Both the position numbers and the translations under genes were made by a program. A stretch of DNA of 64,000 nucleotides from Acidipropionibacterium thoenii DSM 20276. GTDB taxonomy: Bacteria > Actinomycetota > Actinomycetes > Propionibacteriales > Propionibacteriaceae. The stretch spans positions 62,001 to 126,000 of the forward strand of contig NZ_KE384019.1 of assembly GCF_000423445.1 (NCBI RefSeq). Direction: 5' to 3'. Under the pieces are notes generated by a model. That model was not told the origin of the DNA, made no database searches, and saw only the letters and a list, made by a program, of their open reading frames with translations. Positions within the stretch are counted from its first letter, which is position 1. Each line of letters starts with the position of its first letter. Shown here one piece after another: positions 42,409 to 52,842 of the stretch.

Positions 42409-43593
42409 CTACATCCAGTTCTTGCGCTTGAAGACCAACCACAGGATGACCCCGGATGCCACCATCAGCAGGAGCGCGAGGGGATAGCCGAGCTTCCAGT
42501 GCAGCTCGGGCATGACGTCGAAATTCATCCCGTAGATGGCGCCGATCACTGTCGGCGCCAGTCCGATGGCGGCCCACCCGGAGATCTTCTTCATGTCCTC
42601 GTTCTGGCGCTGGGTGACCAGGATCGAGTTGACGTCGAGGATCTGGCTCATCCCCGATCGCAGATCCTCCACCCGGGTGTTGGCCCTCGAGAGGTGGTCG
42701 GAGACATCCTGCAGATAGGCCCGAAGGGCGTCCAGGGTGCGGTACTTGGCGAACCCGGCGCGCAGGTCCTCCAGGACCTCGGCCAGCGGGATGGATGACT
42801 GCTGGAGGTCGATGATCTCGCGACTGAGCCGGTAGATCCGCTCGGTGACCCGGGGGTCTCCTGCGAAGACCTGCCGCTCGATCTGATCACGGTCGACGCC
42901 GAGCTCGCGCAGCACCTGCAGATAGCCGTCCACCACCAGGTCCAGGAAGGAGTAGAGCACGGCGTCCGCTCCCAGTTTCAGCAGGTCGCTGTTCTGGGCC
43001 AGGCGCGCCGCGTTGTCGACGGCCGGGCTGTCGCCGTCCTGGCGAATGATCGCCACCACGTTCTGGTGGGCCAACAGGTGGTACTCGGTGACCTGGACGT
43101 CCTCGATCTCATCGACGTAGGCAGCCATCCGCGCCACGATGAAGACGACGTCGTCGTAACGCTCCATCTTGGGTCGCTGGCCGGCCAGCAGCAGGTCCTC
43201 CACGAGCACCGGGTGCAGACTCCAGGCCGACTCCAGATGCCGGATCTGCTCGGGGAAGGGGGAGCCGTAGCTGAGGATCACCCCCCGTGACGGGTCCTCG
43301 GCGGCGTAGCTGAGGGCGCCGTTGACCGCCTGCCTGGACACCTCCGGGCCCACGGTCTCGGTACCGCACATCTGCCCGTCCTGCAGTCTCATCACGGTCA
43401 GCGATGAGGGGCGGCGCTGCGGTGCGGCGGTGGGGGTGTCATGCCGACCGATGAGGTCGATGAGACGGTGGGTGCGGTCGCGGGACTGGGTTCGGCCGCT
43501 GGCCGCGGCGCTGCGGGAGCCGAGCTCGCGAGTCGACGGTGTGCCCTGTGCCGGGTTCTCCCGTGCCGGGTCCCACTGTGCTGGATTCCTCAT
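42409..43593 (-). CDS. corA: CorA-family magnesium/cobalt channel
   Basis: A 394-residue CorA channel. There is a long cytoplasmic alpha/beta and helical funnel domain (SWSLHPVLVEDLL and similar), then two C-terminal membrane helices. The diagnostic GMN signature is in IYGMNFDVMPEL at the end of TM1. ATG 43593 is preceded by GAGGAGG; the residues before about 65 are low-complexity and specific to this lineage. It is a homopentameric divalent cation channel. The nearby MgtE-N/CBS protein is unrelated by operon. Confidence 0.93.
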   Translation of the reverse strand: MRNPAQWDPARENPAQGTPSTRELGSRSAAASGRTQSRDRTHRLIDLIGRHDTPTAAPQRRPSSLTVMRLQDGQMCGTETVGPEVSRQAVNGALSYAAEDPSRGVILSYGSPFPEQIRHLESAWSLHPVLVEDLLLAGQRPKMERYDDVVFIVARMAAYVDEIEDVQVTEYHLLAHQNVVAIIRQDGDSPAVDNAARLAQNSDLLKLGADAVLYSFLDLVVDGYLQVLRELGVDRDQIERQVFAGDPRVTERIYRLSREIIDLQQSSIPLAEVLEDLRAGFAKYRTLDALRAYLQDVSDHLSRANTRVEDLRSGMSQILDVNSILVTQRQNEDMKKISGWAAIGLAPTVIGAIYGMNFDVMPELHWKLGYPLALLLMVASGVILWLVFKRKNWM

Positions 43594-43725
43594 CGACCAC
43601 CCCTCCTCACCTGACCTGGGCCCACCGGTCGCGCCATGATCCGGCATCCCACTCTACGTCCTGGCCGCGCCTCAGGGGCGGCCTGAGTCCCTGTGCGACC
43701 TTCGTCACATAGCATCGGGCAGGTG

Positions 43726-44349
43726 ATGGGTTCCCTGGTCGCCGTCGCCTTCTGGGTCCTGGCCGTGGCGGTGATGCTGGTGGCAACGGCTGCGGCCGGC
43801 GACACGACGCCATGGCGACGTCCCAGAGCCTCCACCGCGGCCCTGTGGCTGATCGTCCTGGTCCCATCCCTGGTCCAGTTGCTCGTCCCGGCGATGCTGT
43901 CGGGGTTGCGGCGCGACTGGCCACTCATCCTCAATGGGCAGCTCTGGCGACTGGTCACCTCCGTCGTGGTCCAGGACGGCGGGGTGGCCGGGCTGCTGTT
44001 CAACGCCTTCTGCCTGACGCTGGTCCTGCTGGGGGCCCAGCTGTACTGGTCGGGGATCCGGATCTGGACCACCTTCTGGGCAGGTGCGATCGTCTCGAAC
44101 CTGGTCGTGGGGCCAGATCTGCAACCGACCGGGGCCGGCAGCTCGATGGCGGCCTTCGTGCTCGGCTCGGCGATCGCGGCCAATGCGCTGTGTGCCAGGC
44201 AGCGGCTCCGCGCGGCCGGATGGGCCTCGGTGGTGGTCTGCTGCGTCGCTGTGATGGTGGTGGGGCGCGACTACCACGCGGTGGCCTGCGCAGTGGGCCT
44301 GCTCGCGGGCCTGCTCCCGCCGTACGGCCCGCGACCGGCCCGGCGGTAG
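43726..44349 (+). CDS. Rhomboid-like intramembrane protein
   Basis: A 207-residue membrane protein of about six helices with the rhomboid entry segment NGQLWRLVTSVVVQDGG. A GAGSSMAAFVLGSA segment stands where the active-site GxSG motif lies, and a His (GRDYHAVACAVGLLAG) occupies the catalytic position in the last helix. The Gly after the Ser is Met, so activity is uncertain. ATG 43726 chosen; GTG 43723 or GTG 43693 are alternatives. A TAGCAT -10-like box at about 43710 suggests near-leaderless transcription. Confidence 0.7.
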   Translation: MGSLVAVAFWVLAVAVMLVATAAAGDTTPWRRPRASTAALWLIVLVPSLVQLLVPAMLSGLRRDWPLILNGQLWRLVTSVVVQDGGVAGLLFNAFCLTLVLLGAQLYWSGIRIWTTFWAGAIVSNLVVGPDLQPTGAGSSMAAFVLGSAIAANALCARQRLRAAGWASVVVCCVAVMVVGRDYHAVACAVGLLAGLLPPYGPRPARR

Positions 44350-44389
44350 CTTCCGAGGGATCCGGCACAGCCTCGATGCGTCTTGTGGT

Positions 44390-44419
44390 TTGAGCCGGCA
44401 TCTCAGCTGCTGGTAGTGT
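44390..44419 (+). promoter_or_regulatory. Putative promoter for the leader-peptide/ABC operon
   Basis: TTGAGC (44390-44395) and TAGTGT (44414-44419) are separated by 18 nt, about 50 nt upstream of the leader peptide start. It agrees moderately with sigma-70 type promoters. Confidence 0.45.
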
Positions 44420-44455
44420 CGCGGCCAACACCTGGCGCAACCGGCGGGTGATACC

Positions 44456-44537
44456 AGGAGGAAGACGATGTTCGTGCGGATGTGTTGTTGCTGTCGCTGA
44501 TTCAGCGACCCGCCACCATATCGCCCTGCTCTTCCTC
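44456..44537 (+). promoter_or_regulatory. Attenuator-like region around the Cys leader
   Basis: Two alternative pairings are visible. GTCGCTGA (44493-44500) pairs with TCAGCGAC (44502-44509), covering the leader's end. The leader ribosome-binding segment GAGGAAGA (44458-44465) is an exact complement of TCTTCCTC (44530-44537), which directly precedes the permease ribosome-binding site TGAGG (44538-44542). A stalled ribosome on the Cys codons would disrupt both. Confidence 0.5.
44468..44500 (+). CDS. Cysteine-rich leader peptide (MFVRMCCCCR)
   Basis: A ten-codon ORF with an ideal ribosome-binding site (AGGAGG at 44456-44461). It encodes MFVRMCCCCR and ends 49 nt before the first ABC gene. Four consecutive Cys codons (TGT TGT TGC TGT, three of them the less favoured TGT in this GC-rich DNA) are not expected by chance. 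They match known actinobacterial Cys-rich leader peptides, where ribosome stalling at low Cys-tRNA alters expression of downstream genes. A hairpin (44493-44509) overlaps its last codons and stop. It would make the downstream peptide transporter cysteine-responsive. Expression is inferred. Confidence 0.8.
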   Translation: MFVRMCCCCR

Positions 44538-44549
44538 TGAGGTCTCCCT

Positions 44550-45545
44550 GTGACCATTCCCCGGTCCGATGCACTGTCCACCCCGTCGATGGGCGCGGGT
44601 TCCGCTGAGGAGAACTCCGGCCCCGGTCCCGATCCGGTCCCCGACAGCCGTCCGGTCGCCTCCCACCACGTGTGGGCCCGGCTTCGTCGTGATCGTTGGG
44701 CCGTTGCCGGCGGAGTGGTGGTCATCCTCACCACGGTGGTGGCGGTGTTCGCCAGACTGATCACCCGACTCAGCGGACGTGACCCTTACAGCTACAACCT
44801 GGACGCCCTCGACGGATCCGGACTGCCGCTCGGTCGATTCGGAGGGATCAGCGCCGCACACCCGTTCGGGGTCGAGCCGCAGACCGGTCGCGATCTCCTG
44901 GCGATAGTCGTGGAGGGCACCCGGACCTCATTCTTCATCGGCCTGGGAGCCACCATTCTGTCGATGATCATCGCCATCATCATCGGGGTCACGGCGGGTT
45001 ACTTCGGCGGCTGGTGGGATGCCGTGGCCTCCAGGGCCACCGATGTCATCCTGGGATTCCCACAGCTGGTGTTCATGATCGCGATCTCCGCCATCGTTCC
45101 CGCCAGCGCGCCGAGGATCCCGATGATGATCCTCATCATCGGGATCCTCGGCTGGCCGTCCACCGCCCGTGTCCTGCGCAGCCGCGCCATGTCGCTGAGA
45201 GGACGCGTCTTCGTGCAGGCCTCCCGAGCGATGGGTGCCGGCGAGATCCATGTACTGGTCACCCAGCTGCTGCCCAACCTGGTCGCCACCATCATCGTCT
45301 TCACCACCATCTCCATCCCGGGAAAGATCGGCGCCGAGGCCGCGCTGTCGTTCCTCGGAGTGGGAGTGATACCCCCGACCCCGTCGTGGGGCCGGACCAT
45401 CGGGTCAGCAGTGTCCTGGGTGAGCACCGATCCCTGGTATCTGCTCTTCCCGGGGGCCGCACTGTTCCTCGTCACCCTCGCCTTCAATCTGTTCGGTGAC
45501 GGATTGCGCGACGCCATCGACCCCAGGACCGGTGAGACCCGATGA
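44550..45545 (+). CDS. dppC: Peptide/nickel-type ABC transporter permease (DppC-like)
   Basis: A 331-residue inner-membrane permease. The N-terminal Pro-rich cytoplasmic tail precedes about six helices. The EAA-type loop is ASRAMGAGEIHVLVTQLLPNL, and EAALSFLGVGVIPPTPSWG is typical of DppC/OppC. The start is GTG 44550 (TGAGG at 44538-44542). It overlaps the next permease gene by 4 nt (ATGA). Upstream control by the Cys leader is inferred. The substrate may be a cysteine-containing or sulfur peptide. Confidence 0.9.
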   Translation: MTIPRSDALSTPSMGAGSAEENSGPGPDPVPDSRPVASHHVWARLRRDRWAVAGGVVVILTTVVAVFARLITRLSGRDPYSYNLDALDGSGLPLGRFGGISAAHPFGVEPQTGRDLLAIVVEGTRTSFFIGLGATILSMIIAIIIGVTAGYFGGWWDAVASRATDVILGFPQLVFMIAISAIVPASAPRIPMMILIIGILGWPSTARVLRSRAMSLRGRVFVQASRAMGAGEIHVLVTQLLPNLVATIIVFTTISIPGKIGAEAALSFLGVGVIPPTPSWGRTIGSAVSWVSTDPWYLLFPGAALFLVTLAFNLFGDGLRDAIDPRTGETR

Positions 45546-46528
45546 ACCGCGTCCGATTCCTGACTTCCCGGTTGCTCCAGACTCTGCTGGTTCTGGTGCT
45601 CATCACCTTCATCACCTTCGCGATCTTCCAGCTGTTTCCCTCCGATCCGGCGCAGCTGGCCTGCGGCAAGCCCTGCACTCCCGAGAGTCTGGCCCGAGCT
45701 CGGGCCTACATGGGCTTCGACAAGAGCTGGTACCTGTAGTTCTGGGACTACCTGTCCGGGATCTTCACGGGCACCACCTATGGTTCCGGAGCCGACATCG
45801 TCAGGTGCTCCGCACCGTGCCTGGGCTACTCCTTCCGGCTGTCCACGCCGGTCACCGAACTGATCGCGGCCAGGTTCCCGATCACCCTGTCCATCGCGAT
45901 CGGTGCCGCCGTGCTGTGGATGGTGATCGGGGTGGCGGCCGGAATCGTCTCCGCCCTGCGTCGCGGCACCACCCTGGACCGGGCGATCATGACCGGGACC
46001 GTGCTCGGCGTCTCCGCGCCGTCCTACCTGGTCGGGCTGCTGGGGATCCTACTGTTCGGGTTCACCGCCGACATCGTCCCGGTCTCGGGCTATGTGCCGT
46101 TCTCCCAGAGTCCCGTGGACTGGGCCTGGCACCTGGCCCTTCCATGGACCGTACTGGCCCTCATCTCGGCGGCGGTGTACGCACGGATGGTGCGCGGCGA
46201 GATGCTGGAGAATCTCGGCGAGGACTATGTCCGAACCGCCCGGGCAGCGGGTCTGCCGGAACGCCGGGTGATCGGTAACCACGTGCTGCGCAACATCTCG
46301 GTCCCTGTCCTCACCTACTTCGCACTGGATTTCGGTGGCCTGCTCGGCGGTGCGGTCATCACCGAGAAGGTGTTCTCGATCCAGGGCCTGGGCGCCCTCT
46401 TCCTGGACGCTGTCGGTGCCACCGACATTCAACTGGTGATGGGCATCACCCTGGTCGCTGCGGCCGCCGTCATCCTGATGAATCTGGTCGCCGATGTGCT
46501 CGCAGCGGCCATCGATCCACGGGTCTGA
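45542..46528 (+). pseudogene. dppB: Peptide/nickel-type ABC permease (DppB-like) with in-frame amber codon
   Basis: A single continuous frame of 329 codons encodes a DppB/OppB-type permease but is split by TAG at 45737-45739. The first part (65 codons) ends FDKSWYL, and the frame resumes FWDYLSGIFTGTT. A Gln codon CAG is expected there (WYLQFWDYL is the family pattern), so one C-to-T change explains the stop. Both halves are otherwise intact, including EDYVRTARAAGLPERRVIGNHVL (EAA loop) and the C-terminal helices. Periplasmic cysteine pairs (ACGKPC, RCSAPC) are present. It may be a recent pseudogene, a sequencing error or readthrough. The downstream ORF at 45911 cannot replace the N-terminus. 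Confidence 0.85.
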
Positions 46529-46582
46529 CACCCTCTTGTTCCCCTCATCCTGCTCACCCAACCGATTCTGAAGGACGGTCCG

Positions 46583-48253
46583 ATGTTCGACTCCACCCAC
46601 CCCTCGAATGCCCTCTCCCGGCGGGGCTTCCTCGCCGGTACCGGGGCCACCGCTCTTACCCTGGCCCTGGCAGCCTGCGGAGCCAACGAACGCTCCTCCT
46701 CGAGCGCCGGCTCGGCGACTCCCACCAAGGGCGGGACGCTGACCATCCTCCAGTCGGCCACCGACATCAACTGGGATCCTGCGAAGAGCCAGTCGATGGC
46801 TGTCACATCGCTCGCCTTGGTGCACCGTCGACTCACGACCTGGAGAATCGTCAATGGTCAGGAGGCGGCCGTGGTGCCAGACCTGGCCACCGACACCGGA
46901 AAGGTGTCGGCCGACGGCCTGACCTGGACCTACGTCCTCAAGGACGGTCTGGTCGCCGAGGACGGGTCTGCGATCACGTCCACCCAGATCAAGCACGGCA
47001 TTGAACGGACCTTCGCCGACTCGCTGTCAGGTGGCCTCGGCTACCACAAGGCACTGCTGGCCGGGACCAAGGGGTACACCGGGCCCTATCAGGGCAAGCA
47101 CCTGGCATCGGTAGAGACCCCCGATGCCAAGACCATCGTGTTTCACCTGACGAAGCCCTATGGCGACTGGCCCTGGATCGCCTCCACCCCGGCCTTCGCC
47201 CCGGTTCCCGCCGGTGACAATCCCGCCAGCTACACCCGCAAGCCAGTGGCCTCGGGGCCCTACCGGGTCGCCGAGTACAAGCAGGGGGTCGAGGTGACCC
47301 TCAAGCGCAACCCGAGGTGGAGCTCCTCCGTCGATGAGGTGCGCACGGCCCTGCCCGAGACCGTCGTGTTCTCCCTGGGGCAGGACGAGTCGGTCGCATC
47401 CCAGCGGCTCATCGCCGACTCGGGAGCCGATCGGAATGCCTTCGGGGCCGATCGGGTCGCCGCCGCCCAGCTGGCCCAGGTGACCGGCAACCCGTCGGCG
47501 AAGGCCAGGCTGGCGACCGCCAGCGCTGGGCCTCTGAACTACCTGGCCATCAATGTCGAGCGGGTCACCGACCTCGATGTGCGGCGGGCCATCGCCTACG
47601 CCGTCGACAAGAAGGCCGTCCAGACGGCGTTGGGTGGAACCCTCGGTGCTGCCGTGGCGACCACTTACATCACGCCGGGTATTCCGGGGCGTCAGGTGTA
47701 CGACCTCTTCCCGACCTCCACCAGCCGGGCGGAACAGCTGCTCAAGGGCAAGAAGGTCGGAAAGCTCGTGCTGCTCACACCGAATGACGAGGCCTCGCTG
47801 GCGATCTCCCAGGCGGTGCAGCAGTCTCTGCAGAAGGTGGGTGTCACGGTGACCATCAGTCCGGTGGAGAGCGACACCTGGACGGAGCGTGCCACTCAGG
47901 GCAATGGCTCGGGATACGACCTGACGATCGGATCGTGGAACCCGGACTACCCCTCTGCCAACGCCAACCTGCAGCCGCTGTTCGCCTCCAGTGAGATCGG
48001 CTCCGGCGGTTACAACGTGTCCCGCTATCGCAATTCGGAGGTGGACACGTTGCTCTCCGAGGCCGCCGCTCTGTCGGTGGAGCAGGCGAAGTCGAAGTGG
48101 CCCGCCATCGACAAGCGGATCGCCCAGGATGTCCCGGCAGTCCCATTGGTCTACCGTCGCAACTCCTTCCTGCACGGTTCCGGGGTGACGAATTTCTTCG
48201 TCAACCCCTTCCCCTCCTACCCGAACTACCTCACTGTGGGAGTGACCGCCTGA
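46583..48253 (+). CDS. Peptide-binding lipoprotein of ABC transporter (SBP family 5)
   Basis: A 556-residue extracellular solute-binding protein. The N-terminus has a twin-arginine signal (SRRGFLAGTG) and lipobox LALAAC, so it is a Tat-exported lipoprotein with Cys about 33 as anchor. The mature part has the family 5 features GGTLTILQSATDINWDPAKSQ, FADSL and KPVASGPYRVAEYKQG. A ribosome-binding site AAGGACGG precedes ATG 46583. It delivers peptides or similar ligands to the permeases encoded upstream. Specificity is not readable from sequence. Confidence 0.92.
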   Translation: MFDSTHPSNALSRRGFLAGTGATALTLALAACGANERSSSSAGSATPTKGGTLTILQSATDINWDPAKSQSMAVTSLALVHRRLTTWRIVNGQEAAVVPDLATDTGKVSADGLTWTYVLKDGLVAEDGSAITSTQIKHGIERTFADSLSGGLGYHKALLAGTKGYTGPYQGKHLASVETPDAKTIVFHLTKPYGDWPWIASTPAFAPVPAGDNPASYTRKPVASGPYRVAEYKQGVEVTLKRNPRWSSSVDEVRTALPETVVFSLGQDESVASQRLIADSGADRNAFGADRVAAAQLAQVTGNPSAKARLATASAGPLNYLAINVERVTDLDVRRAIAYAVDKKAVQTALGGTLGAAVATTYITPGIPGRQVYDLFPTSTSRAEQLLKGKKVGKLVLLTPNDEASLAISQAVQQSLQKVGVTVTISPVESDTWTERATQGNGSGYDLTIGSWNPDYPSANANLQPLFASSEIGSGGYNVSRYRNSEVDTLLSEAAALSVEQAKSKWPAIDKRIAQDVPAVPLVYRRNSFLHGSGVTNFFVNPFPSYPNYLTVGVTA

Positions 48254-49965
48254 TGATCGGAGGGCAGCAGGCCGGCACTTCGGAGTCGGCCCGCTCCGAT
48301 GAGCCGGTGCTGAGGCTGCGCGACCTGTCGGTGCACTTCAGTGGCTCCCCGGTGGCGGCCTCGGAGGAGGTCGATCTGGAGCTGGTTCCCGGCCGGGTGC
48401 TCGCCCTGGTCGGGGAGTCGGGTTCCGGGAAATCGGTCACCGCGCTCGGCAGCCTCGGTCTGCTGCCCCCGACCGCCCGAGTGAGCGGCTCGGCGCTGCT
48501 CAACCGATCCGATGACACAGGGGGTGCCACCTCGCAGGTGGAACTCGTGGGAGCTGCCCGCCCCGTGCTCGACGACGCTCGTGGCCGTCTGGTGGGCACC
48601 ATCTTTCAGGAGCCGGCCAGTGCTCTGGACCCGTTGCTCACCATCAGGTCGCAGATCAGCGAGGCCATCAGAGCCCATGGCGATCGTCGAGGGATCTCGC
48701 GCTCCCGGCTGAGGGAGCGGGTCGCGGAGCTTCTGACCCGGGTCGGGCTGGCGGAGGTCGAGCGGATCGCCTCCTCCTACCCCCACCAACTGTCCGGTGG
48801 GCAGCAGCAGCGCGCCTGCATCGCCCTGGCACTGGCCTGCGACCCGCTTGTGATCGTCGCCGACGAACCCACCACTGCACTGGATGTCACAGTCCAGGCG
48901 GGGATCCTCGACCTGCTCCGAACACTGACCGGTGAGGGGATGGCCGTGCTGCTCATCACCCACGACATGGGCGTGGTGGCTGACATCGCCGATGAGGTGG
49001 CCGTGATGAGGCACGGTCGCATCGTCGAGCGAGGCGGGGTCGACGAGATCTTCAGTCGACCGAGCCATCCCTACACCCGGGAACTGCTGGGGGCCGTGCC
49101 CCGACTCGACGCGCTGCGCGAGGCCCCGGACGTGGTGGAGCCGGAACCGGCCGGCCCCCGGCCAACCCCGGTGGTGGAGGTCGCCAACCTCGATGTGGTC
49201 TACAAGGCCCGCGGGCGACGGCCCGTGCATGCGGTGCGCGGGGTCTCGCTGTCCATCGCCGCCGGGGAGGTGCTCGGCCTGGTGGGGGAGTCCGGATCGG
49301 GGAAGTCCACTATCGCCGGCACGCTGACCGGGATGGTGCCGGTGACCTCGGGTTCGGTGAGGGTCGACGGTGTCGAGGTGGCGGGAGCCTCCCGCCGGGA
49401 GCTGCTGCCGGTGCGGCGTCAGACCGGCGTGGTCTACCAGAACCCGGCCTCGGCGCTGAACCCCCGACGCACCGTGGGGGCCTCCATCGCCGAACCCCTG
49501 ATGCTCCATGCCGATATGGAGTCCGCCCAGCGGCGGGCCAGGGTCCGAGAACTGCTGGACCAGGTTCGGCTGCCGGTCTCGATGGCCGAGCGATACCCCC
49601 ACGAGATGAGTGGCGGGCAGCGTCAGCGGGTCGCCATCGCCCGCGCCCTGGCCCTGCGGCCGCGCCTGGTGATCGCCGATGAGCCGACCAGCGCACTGGA
49701 TGTCTCGGTACAGGCCGTGGTGCTCGACCTGCTCGCCTCCCTGCAGGCCGAGTTGGAGTTCGCCTGCCTGTTCGTGTCCCACGATCTGGCGGTGGTGGAG
49801 CAGGTCGCCGCCCGGACCCTGGTTCTCAGTGCGGGAAGGGTGGTCGAGGAGGGGCCCACCGACCAGGTGCTGGCCCATCCCCGCGAGGACTACACCAGAC
49901 GGCTCGTGGCCGCTGTCCCGGTGCCCGATCCCCGGGTGCAGAGATCCAGGCGGGCGGCGGTCTGA
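48253..49965 (+). CDS. Fused peptide ABC transporter ATPase (DppD-DppF)
   Basis: 570 residues containing two complete ABC ATPase domains in tandem. The first (about 20-290) has GESGSGKSV Walker A, LSGGQQQR signature and [12 protein letters not shown] Walker B. The second (about 305-560) has [17 protein letters not shown] and [12 protein letters not shown]. The DppD-like first half ends in [17 protein letters not shown] 48253 overlaps the SBP stop by one base (TGATG), so it is co-translated. It energises the importer formed by the two permeases. Confidence 0.95.
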
Positions 49966-51686: not shown

Positions 51687-52842
51687 GGGAATCACCTCCA
51701 ATCGGTAGGGAGAGCGATGTCAGCCATGTCGTGGGATCAGATGTGCTCCTCATGCTACTGAATCGTCCGTTGAGGATCGCGACTCGCTCTCGCATGCCAA
51801 TGAGGCCGTGTCCGCCGACACGTGACTCCTGGCGACCGGTGGCGAGTTGATTCGCAGCGGTGAACGTGACCGAGCGTCGCTCTGCATTGACGGTGAGGCG
51901 CAGCGTGCAGATCCCTGGGGCTCCGTGCTTGGCGATGTTTCGCGCCGCTTCGCGGATCCCAGCCACCAGGCAGCCATGGCACGCCGGGCTGAGCGCCAAG
52001 CCGGTCGCTGAGCCCACTACCACGGGTTGGAATCCATCGCCGCGGAGTGACTCGGCTGCTGAGTCCAGGACTTCTTGGAGGGGGGAGTGGTTGAGGAAGG
52101 CCGAGTCGAGATCGGGATCCGGATCCCGGAGGGCGATCAGGATCTCGTTGAGATCATCGGCGGTGGCGCGAGCGAGATCGCCCACCTTCTCGAGGGAGCC
52201 TCGGATGTTCGGGTCAGGCTGGGCGGACGCATCGGCGGAGGCCGCAATGAGCGAGATCCGGGACAACGACTGCAAGGCTGTGTCGTGCAACTGGCGAGCG
52301 ATGATCTGTTGCTGCTGTTGTCGCTGGGATGCGTACTTGTACTTCAGTGCGCGTTGAAGCTGATGAAAACCGAATGTTGTCAACCATGTCAGGGAAAGGA
52401 TGAATGCCCATCCGAAAGTGGCGAAGACCACTCTCCTGAGTGACTGAGGAGGAACAGCACGGGTCTCTGCGATGCAACTCAGCGTCAAGTACGCGAGCGT
52501 GAGGGAGGCTCCTGATCGCCACCGCCCGAGGGCGCTGCAACTGGCCACCGGAAGCAGGCCCGCGAGGGTGGCGAATGTCGAGTCAGTACCTGGAAAGAGG
52601 AGCAATGCTCCCTGGAAGGCCATGGCCACGCATCCGGCCAGGAGCGGCCAGCGGCCAGAGAAGGCCGCCGCGGTACACAGGGCGATCTCCAAGGCGAACG
52701 GCGCGACCTCTGCACCGTGCCGAGGAGGCGCTGTCATCAGCACTGCAATGAACAGGATTGCGATCGCGGCTGCGACCGCGGTCACGATACTCTCGAAGGT
52801 GCGGAGTCTCGCTCGAAGTCGCTTCAGTCCCCCCGCGTTCAC
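51652..52842 (-). CDS. Sensor histidine kinase (HisKA_3 type)
   Basis: 396 residues with five or six N-terminal membrane helices (about 15-160), a short Gln-rich linker, the dimerisation/phosphoacceptor H-box IIARQLHDTALQSLSRI (H186), and an HATPase domain with N-box GIREAARNIAKHG and G-box GGHGLIGMRERVAIL. GTG 52842 lies about 6 nt after TACTCT, so the mRNA may be leaderless; no ribosome-binding site is seen. An upstream in-frame extension exists but is not domain-like. Pairs with the response regulator. Confidence 0.88.
   Translation of the reverse strand: MNAGGLKRLRARLRTFESIVTAVAAAIAILFIAVLMTAPPRHGAEVAPFALEIALCTAAAFSGRWPLLAGCVAMAFQGALLLFPGTDSTFATLAGLLPVASCSALGRWRSGASLTLAYLTLSCIAETRAVPPQSLRRVVFATFGWAFILSLTWLTTFGFHQLQRALKYKYASQRQQQQQIIARQLHDTALQSLSRISLIAASADASAQPDPNIRGSLEKVGDLARATADDLNEILIALRDPDPDLDSAFLNHSPLQEVLDSAAESLRGDGFQPVVVGSATGLALSPACHGCLVAGIREAARNIAKHGAPGICTLRLTVNAERRSVTFTAANQLATGRQESRVGGHGLIGMRERVAILNGRFSSMRSTSDPTTWLTSLSLPIGGDSHDSSDHRSHRR

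Follow-up and report, generated by a model that had tools for sequence, protein, structure and literature searches.

A probable cysteine-sensing leader peptide within a conserved double-stem hairpin ahead of ABC importers in Actinomyces relatives and some propionibacteria

Does a ten-codon reading frame with four adjacent Cys codons, placed directly ahead of a peptide-type ABC importer, sense cysteine on behalf of that importer? The question was raised by a 64,000-nt stretch of the Acidipropionibacterium thoenii DSM 20276 genome (contig NZ_KE384019.1, positions 62,001 to 126,000, forward strand), here called the window and used for all coordinates. The leader ORF (MFVRMCCCCR-stop, 44468-44500, + strand, ten codons) reads ATG TTC GTG CGG ATG TGT TGT TGC TGT CGC TGA; its four adjacent Cys codons occupy 44483-44494 (codons 6-9), and three of the four are TGT. 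A Shine-Dalgarno (SD) sequence, AGGAGG (44456-44461, + strand), lies 6 nt before the ATG, and a gap of 49 nt separates the leader stop from the GTG start of a permease gene at 44550. An earlier note, made from the sequence alone, had described the ten-codon ORF with its ribosome-binding site 49 nt before the permease, the four adjacent Cys codons with three TGT, and a hairpin at 44493-44509 overlapping the Cys codons; the sequence was re-read and agreed with all three.

SD-led ORFs of at most 20 codons were counted in the window and in 300 first-order Markov versions of it. Four consecutive Cys codons occurred in one such ORF in the real window and in none of the 300 simulated versions; three consecutive Cys codons occurred at 0.013 per simulated window. 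Both strands of the genome were scanned with TGYTGYTGYTGY, giving 19 matches, and three places remained once an SD-like word and a length of no more than 40 codons were required. The first was the MFVRMCCCCR leader, and the second, at about window position 52307, was matched twice (L039, L040) and lies antisense to a histidine kinase gene. The third (L035), 20 codons long, contains a CCCC run and is preceded, at a distance, by a weak AAGG. When four other genomes of the genus were searched for the pattern ATG-N9-ATG-TGY-TGY, it was found solely at the orthologous leader of A. jensenii (G004).

The leader is followed, on the same strand, by genes for an OppC/DppC-type permease with a GTG start (44550-45545; BPD_transp_1 and OppC_N matches), an OppB/DppB-type permease (45542-46528), a substrate-binding lipoprotein of SBP family 5 (46583-48253; nearest solved structure OppA2, 2wok) and a double ABC ATPase of the OppD-OppF type (48247-49965; domain matches). 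The set expected of an Opp/Dpp-type importer is present (two BPD permeases, SBP family 5, two ABC domains). The earlier note had called this peptide-type operon complete, which holds for the gene set but not for the OppB-type permease: an in-frame TAG (45737-45739) interrupts that gene in this assembly, and the part after the TAG was used for domain scanning. The OppB-type gene is uninterrupted in A. jensenii (G004) and in an Acidipropionibacterium MAG (G003), and corA and map flank the operon in both genomes. Other breaks were seen among the relatives: the Acidipropionibacterium MAG (L084:6478-8114) has a frameshifted SBP gene, and in C. avidum ATCC 25577 (L219:6867-10280) permC contains a stop and the SBP gene is again frameshifted; these broken importer genes may represent real decay or assembly error. 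The four importer proteins encoded at 44550-49965 are Cys-poor (8 Cys codons in 1787, none of them in permC; six other window genes have 25 in 1999).

Permease orthologues were gathered from the genus (5 genomes), the family (198 genomes), the GTDB contig collection and the A. urogenitalis family (213 genomes). One genome per species was kept where the permease was at least 69% identical to that of A. thoenii (best tblastn segment), yielding a 30-genome set of 3 Acidipropionibacterium, 3 Cutibacterium and 24 Actinomyces relatives (A. urogenitalis family; the nine with a species name are all Actinomyces). Conservation of the Cys run in homologous loci had been proposed in the earlier note as a check. 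At 29 of the 30 orthologous loci a leader was present that combines an SD-like word with 2-5 Cys codons, mostly adjacent, its end lying 47-77 nt before the permease start in those 29 genomes. The forms found include MHERMCCCCR (A. jensenii), MRMRMCCCR (C. avidum), MTKRMCCCCCR (A. urogenitalis), MAKRMWSCCCR (A. oris) and MLATRMCCCCR (A. glycerinitolerans). All 30 rows carry an SD-like word, the weakest being AAGG (L197). The number of Cys codons varies from one to five across the 30 loci, with three in 11 leaders and two in one (12 of 30 with only two or three), and Arg or Ser usually stands in its place where Cys is absent. The run was lost in one genome, an Acidipropionibacterium MAG (L003), where the leader reads MFVRMRICSSR, with one Cys, and both the leader ORF and the outer RNA stem described below are kept; since the SBP gene is also frameshifted there, importer loss or assembly error is possible. 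The earlier claim that a Cys-codon leader regulates the peptide importer withstands the refuting condition set in that note, free variation of the Cys codons between related genomes, in view of the 29 conserved loci, and is weakened by this one; the claim is in part supported.

Among the loci collected, those with a permease below 65% identity had no such leader within 500 nt. In a tree of 50 permeases, from which L003 and L169 were omitted after their translated stretches met a stop, the 28 leader-bearing rows formed one clade (support 100/97, one change). This clade comprises Actinomyces relatives and two propionibacterial genera, with the remaining propionibacterial rows outside, and its mixed membership suggests that operon and leader moved together, as a unit, between Actinomyces relatives and propionibacteria.

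A promoter was predicted by eye at 44390-44419 (+ strand), consisting of TTGAGC (44390-44395), an 18-nt spacer and TAGTGT (44414-44419). It would place the -10 element about 50 nt upstream of the leader start and leave a 5' UTR of about 40 nt ahead of the leader. By eye, TTGAGC and TAatgT-like hexamers are retained in two Acidipropionibacterium relatives, a TTTGAG box lies upstream of the leader in all three Cutibacterium, and an extended -10-like TGCTAGCGT occurs in 12 of the 24 Actinomyces relatives; a promoter consensus scan at the leader locus called no promoter. A palindrome-like TGAGC-N5-TCTCA (44391-44405) overlaps the -35 element and is a candidate operator. A close form of it lies upstream of the Cutibacterium leaders, and GTCTCA words are found in several Actinomyces relatives. 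The palindrome was considered as the mark of a sulfur regulon and rejected: TGAGM-N5-TCTCA occurs at seven places in the genome including the leader, and by eye the others have no adjoining sulfur-assimilation gene. One of these places is the 3' end of a thioredoxin gene.

The leader RNA was then analyzed by folding and alignment. The inner hairpin, GTCGCTG-ATT-CAGCGAC (44493-44509, + strand), is perfect and takes in the last Cys codon, the Arg codon and the stop. The conserved element is larger than this stop-codon hairpin and adds an outer stem, in which the Arg-Met codons (44476-44484, + strand, with G44479 bulged) pair with a downstream CATTCGC region (44517-44524). In the relatives, GCGAATG of the Arg-Met codons pairs with CATTCGC downstream, and GCTGTCG of the last Cys and Arg codons pairs with CGACAGC just after the stop, leaving the stop in the loop; A. 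thoenii is a variant with a bulged G in the outer stem and a different inner-stem register. Arg-Met is nearly invariant and the residues preceding it are free, because the Arg-Met codons form the outer stem.

In an alignment of 27 sequences (24 distinct), 96.4% of cells were paired, compared with 27-58% when the partners were slid, and both-sided (compensatory) changes were found at five of the seven inner-stem pairs. In the outer stem, which is nearly invariant, 95.8% of cells in the 24 distinct rows were paired and no both-sided changes were found, a percentage biased upward by trimming of the 27 segments at the CATTCGC-like word that forms the 3' arm of that stem. The stem alignments omit the three Cutibacterium rows, whose outer stem is in another register (seen in L168). 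RNAalifold, applied to an untrimmed 30-row alignment, returned just four inner-stem pairs. The A. thoenii leader region folded better than shuffled versions (z -2.19; 9 of 200 shuffles as good). In Rfam, four leader loci gave no family at gathering score, and four matches below gathering score in 43000-46000 all fell outside the leader.

A covariance model (R1) was built from the 27 sequences and searched in 40 genomes. Because the RNA fold of this SD-led leader is conserved, one RNA model finds further members: of the 24 Actinomyces relatives, all of which carry the first copy, 17 yielded a second one (L250-L266, E 3.7e-12 to 0.006). The second-copy leaders are GTG-started (VRMRMCCCCCR, VVMRMCCCSCR and similar; some could instead start at an in-frame ATG two codons later), and all 17 have an SD-like word and 4-6 Cys codons. 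Cys occupies 50 of the 51 positions at the fourth to sixth codons from the end, with little TGT/TGC exchange, and 41-53 nt separate the leader from the next gene. When these copies were added (44 sequences, 40 distinct), 94.7% of cells were paired, compared with 31-47% when slid, and the outer stem in the 40 distinct rows reached 92.8%, with one pair changed from A-U to G-C in four rows; these figures are biased, the second-locus copies having been found with a model that contains both stems. None of 500 shuffles scored as high on pairing and covariation.

The same four genes stand behind the second copy in all 17 genomes (ATPase, binding protein and two permeases, by tblastn with the L264 proteins), and Pfam matches in L264 (A. 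oris) were ABC_tran, SBP_bac_3 and two BPD_transp_1. NCBIfam placed this second importer among polar-amino-acid importers, and its matches left the substrate unsettled: a cystine permease model was the best match of one permease, below cut-off, and for the binding protein Lys/Arg/Orn and Asp/Glu models scored above the cystine model, all below cut-off. Twenty extra model matches were examined out of well over 100 listed. Model matches at L247/L267, L268, L269, L271 and L272 were judged to be chance, with no SD-led Cys leader; behind L267-L269 stood none of the genes of the second operon. Under stricter filters, a second model (R2, built from all 44 sequences) added no convincing copy when run on 195 genomes of the window's family, and among 394 sampled genomes of the class it gave only the A. 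thoenii locus at E<=1e-4; the models barely score or miss the Cutibacterium leaders (R1 E 0.07-0.16; R2 none at 0.001), and these counts are no measure of leader spread.

A route from the leader to the importer was sought in the pairing of their start regions. A strand upstream of the leader ATG and including its SD (strand A, 44444-44465, + strand) is predicted to pair with the permease start region (strand A', 44530-44551, + strand), which comprises TCTTCCTCT, a portion of the permease SD and the sequence around the start codon. In the predicted fold, GGAGGAAGA (44457-44465) pairs with TCTTCCTCT (44530-44538), and the last two bases of the permease SD, GAGG (44539-44542), are paired. The earlier note had proposed pairing of the leader SD segment with a segment just before the permease SD. 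The 30 nt upstream of the leader were tested against A' in 20 of the 30 genomes, picked by hand as representatives: cognate pairs gave -16.6 kcal/mol, compared with -14.3 kcal/mol for permuted pairs (p=5e-5; p=1.5e-4 in a 13-genome subset), and ten control region pairs gave p=0.04-0.81, one of them at p=0.044. With A' cut to the SD-to-start segment p was 0.24, and at the second locus (13 of 17 sequences, likewise picked by hand) p was 0.63. The proposed pairing has evolutionary support at the first locus but not at the second. Genome comparison brings out the leader, the Cys codons and the two stems; co-evolution of A with A' shows at the A. thoenii-type locus only.

Release of the permease SD was modeled by folding with a stalled ribosome in place. 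When pairing under the ribosome was forbidden, the SD was not freed (mean unpaired 0.236 free vs 0.231 stalled, p=0.24). The median opening cost, 9.4 kcal/mol, fell to 8.9 kcal/mol (p=0.047) with the whole leader blocked and to 7.7 kcal/mol (p=0.005) with 18 nt upstream blocked as well, both p values coming from related sequences that are not independent; neither block raised the unpaired probability of the permease SD. At the second locus, stalled-ribosome folding had no significant effect. As a direct demonstration of SD release, this modeling was essentially negative. That A:A' is the decision element is a tentative reading, held at slightly under even. The sensor has good support; the transmission of its signal to the permease start does not.

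The leader is very probably a cysteine-sensing attenuator. The best explanation overall, which we consider likely, is attenuation governed by Cys-tRNA charging, in which strands A and A' form a translational switch controlling an importer of a cysteine source. A ribosome would load on the leader's own SD and translate the ten codons. With ample Cys-tRNA it would reach the stop and leave, and the leader RNA would fold into the double-stem hairpin; with the ribosome gone, strand A would pair with A', before and over the permease SD, and translation of the importer would be low. With scarce Cys-tRNA the ribosome would stall on the Cys run (codons 6-9), 15-27 nt past the leader start, covering the 5' strands of both stems and lying near strand A, such that A could not reach A' during transcription. 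The permease start would then stay open, and the importer would bring in a cysteine source.

The main rival, possible though on the whole unlikely, keeps the same sensor and replaces the switch with transcription attenuation by Rho, of the kind known from E. coli tna. While stalled just before the stop, the ribosome would cover a C-rich Rho loading site that starts after the stop; once it leaves, Rho would end transcription before the importer. Consistent with this, the 46-nt segment examined downstream of the stop (44504-44549) is rich in C and poor in G (21 C, 8 G), the corresponding segments of the other genomes are C-rich by eye, a scan of 44350-44650 found no intrinsic terminator (hairpin plus U run), and the modeled SD release is weak. 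Rho was also proposed for the cys leaders of Mycobacterium and P. acnes (PMC1262725). Against it, after departure of the ribosome a large part of the C-rich 3' strand would be buried in the conserved hairpin, just when Rho would need it exposed, and the co-evolution of A with A' at the A. thoenii-type locus is left unexplained. Translational rather than Rho-dependent control is inferred, as are ribosome stalling and the direction of the switch.

Codon usage bears on the sensor itself. Of the 30 leaders, 23 have Cys at the third codon from the end, 25 at the fourth and 21 at the fifth. The last Cys codon, next to Arg, is TGT in 29 of 30, and the inner stem accounts for TGT only at this codon. 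The third codon from the end is TGC in 19 leaders, TGT in 4 and another codon in 7. At the fourth and fifth codons from the end, which lie outside the inner stem, Cys is kept with TGT:TGC ratios of 18:7 and 16:5; such exchange with Cys retained is as expected if the codon is selected. TGT makes up 75 of 109 leader Cys codons, compared with TGC in 30 of 33 Cys codons of ten window genes. Retained Cys with TGT/TGC exchange, together with the preference for TGT, is the look expected of a codon-sensing leader. These counts weigh against a hairpin that responds to some other signal (general translation status or a ligand), in which the Cys codons would be a by-product of RNA structure. The stems do account for the Arg-Met codons and for the Cys-Arg codons next to the stop, the outer stem of L003 is kept with one Cys, and five of the seven non-Cys codons at the third position from the end keep GC (CGC, AGC). 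The unpaired part, however, has two to three Cys codons in most leaders and shows TGT/TGC exchange, and the second-importer copy holds its 4-6 Cys codons in 17 of 17, though with little exchange; we regard another signal as improbable.

A leader that merely couples translation, as a constitutive initiation helper with no cysteine sensing, would be in keeping with a short SD-led ORF close to the permease start and with the nearness of leader SD and permease SD in the predicted fold, but it leaves the conserved Cys codons and the presence of a Cys leader before a second, different importer unexplained, and is very improbable. A chance ORF of no function has next to no probability: although it spans just ten codons and the run is absent in one relative, conservation of the leader in 29 of 30 genomes, within one clade and by one change, contradicts it, and no simulated window held its like.

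Returning to the cysteine-sensing attenuator, the first importer may take up a cysteine source, such as peptides that contain Cys and perhaps glutathione or fragments of it, a suggestion drawn from the leader alone. OppA2 of clavulanate biosynthesis was considered as a guide, being the best solved relative of the SBP, and does not settle the substrate. The NCBIfam glutathione Gsi models scored far below cut-off. The double ATPase passes the NCBIfam cut-offs of the NikD and NikE nickel models (both halves summed), and the importer may be for nickel or another substrate. In A. urogenitalis a GST-like gene (GST_N_2, GST_C_2; L215:2992-3867) lies downstream of the operon on the same strand and would fit a thiol substrate. 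It was set aside as substrate evidence: two other Actinomyces stretches have unlike frames in the same place, and the one scanned gave no Pfam match.

The two loci may together define a new class of structured upstream ORF, with a Cys run in a double-stem hairpin whose outer strand is made of the Arg-Met codons. In Actinomyces relatives and some propionibacteria this class would form a regulon for cysteine-sensing import, controlling two different ABC importers, one of oligopeptide and one of polar-amino-acid type, and marking both as importers of a cysteine source; the leader SD region may in addition double as a lock on the permease start. We hold the case for this class to be evenly balanced. 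If correct, the leader would assign a testable signal, cysteine shortage, to two importers, and its design can be dissected by codon and stem changes. A search largely confined to open-access papers turned up no account of a Cys leader ahead of either kind of importer, peptide or polar-amino-acid, nor of one in Actinomyces.

Several known systems resemble this leader in part. P. acnes is now named Cutibacterium. In the classical trp/his-type attenuator, strand 1 with the regulatory codons pairs with strand 2 after the stop, and the same arrangement is seen here; unlike in that attenuator, no intrinsic terminator was found and no strands 3 and 4 were identified. Polycysteine leaderless short ORFs reportedly precede cysteine-metabolism loci (said of Canestrari et al. 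2020, Mol Microbiol 114:93), where a structure is said to sequester the downstream RBS unless the ribosome stalls. Conserved Cys-rich uORFs were reported in mycobacteria (PMC4633059), and the mycobacterial polycysteine leaderless ORFs are cysteine-responsive, with an elongation speed said to be cysteine-dependent (cited in PMC9031893, PMC9094748). Like them, the present leader is a short ORF upstream of an operon and has adjacent Cys codons; it differs in being predicted, from an SD with the usual spacing and the promoter placed by eye, to be SD-led rather than leaderless, in its conserved double-stem hairpin and in its importer targets. Seliverstov et al. 2005 (PMC1262725) predict Cys leaders without terminators for the cys operons of Mycobacterium and P. 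acnes and for cbs in B. longum. Those leaders likewise occur in actinobacteria, with a Cys run near the stop and no terminator (here by window scan), and the genus of P. acnes also carries the element described here, but they precede cys operons or cbs, whereas ours precede importers of the SBP family 5 and SBP family 3 types. The Rhodobacterales uORFC-8-2 motif upstream of cysS (PMC8632094) is also a uORF with tandem Cys codons inside a stem, the first of two; it belongs to alphaproteobacteria, targets cysS and has an intrinsic terminator with a U run. The metL leader upstream of metNIQ in Streptomyces lividans (PMC8079986) is a leader peptide with Cys (three residues) before an amino-acid importer, as here, but is 29 residues long, leaderless, ascribed to methionine and without a Cys run. 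The Cys-codon leaders found in this literature precede biosynthesis, cysteine-metabolism or tRNA-synthetase genes; those described here precede importers.
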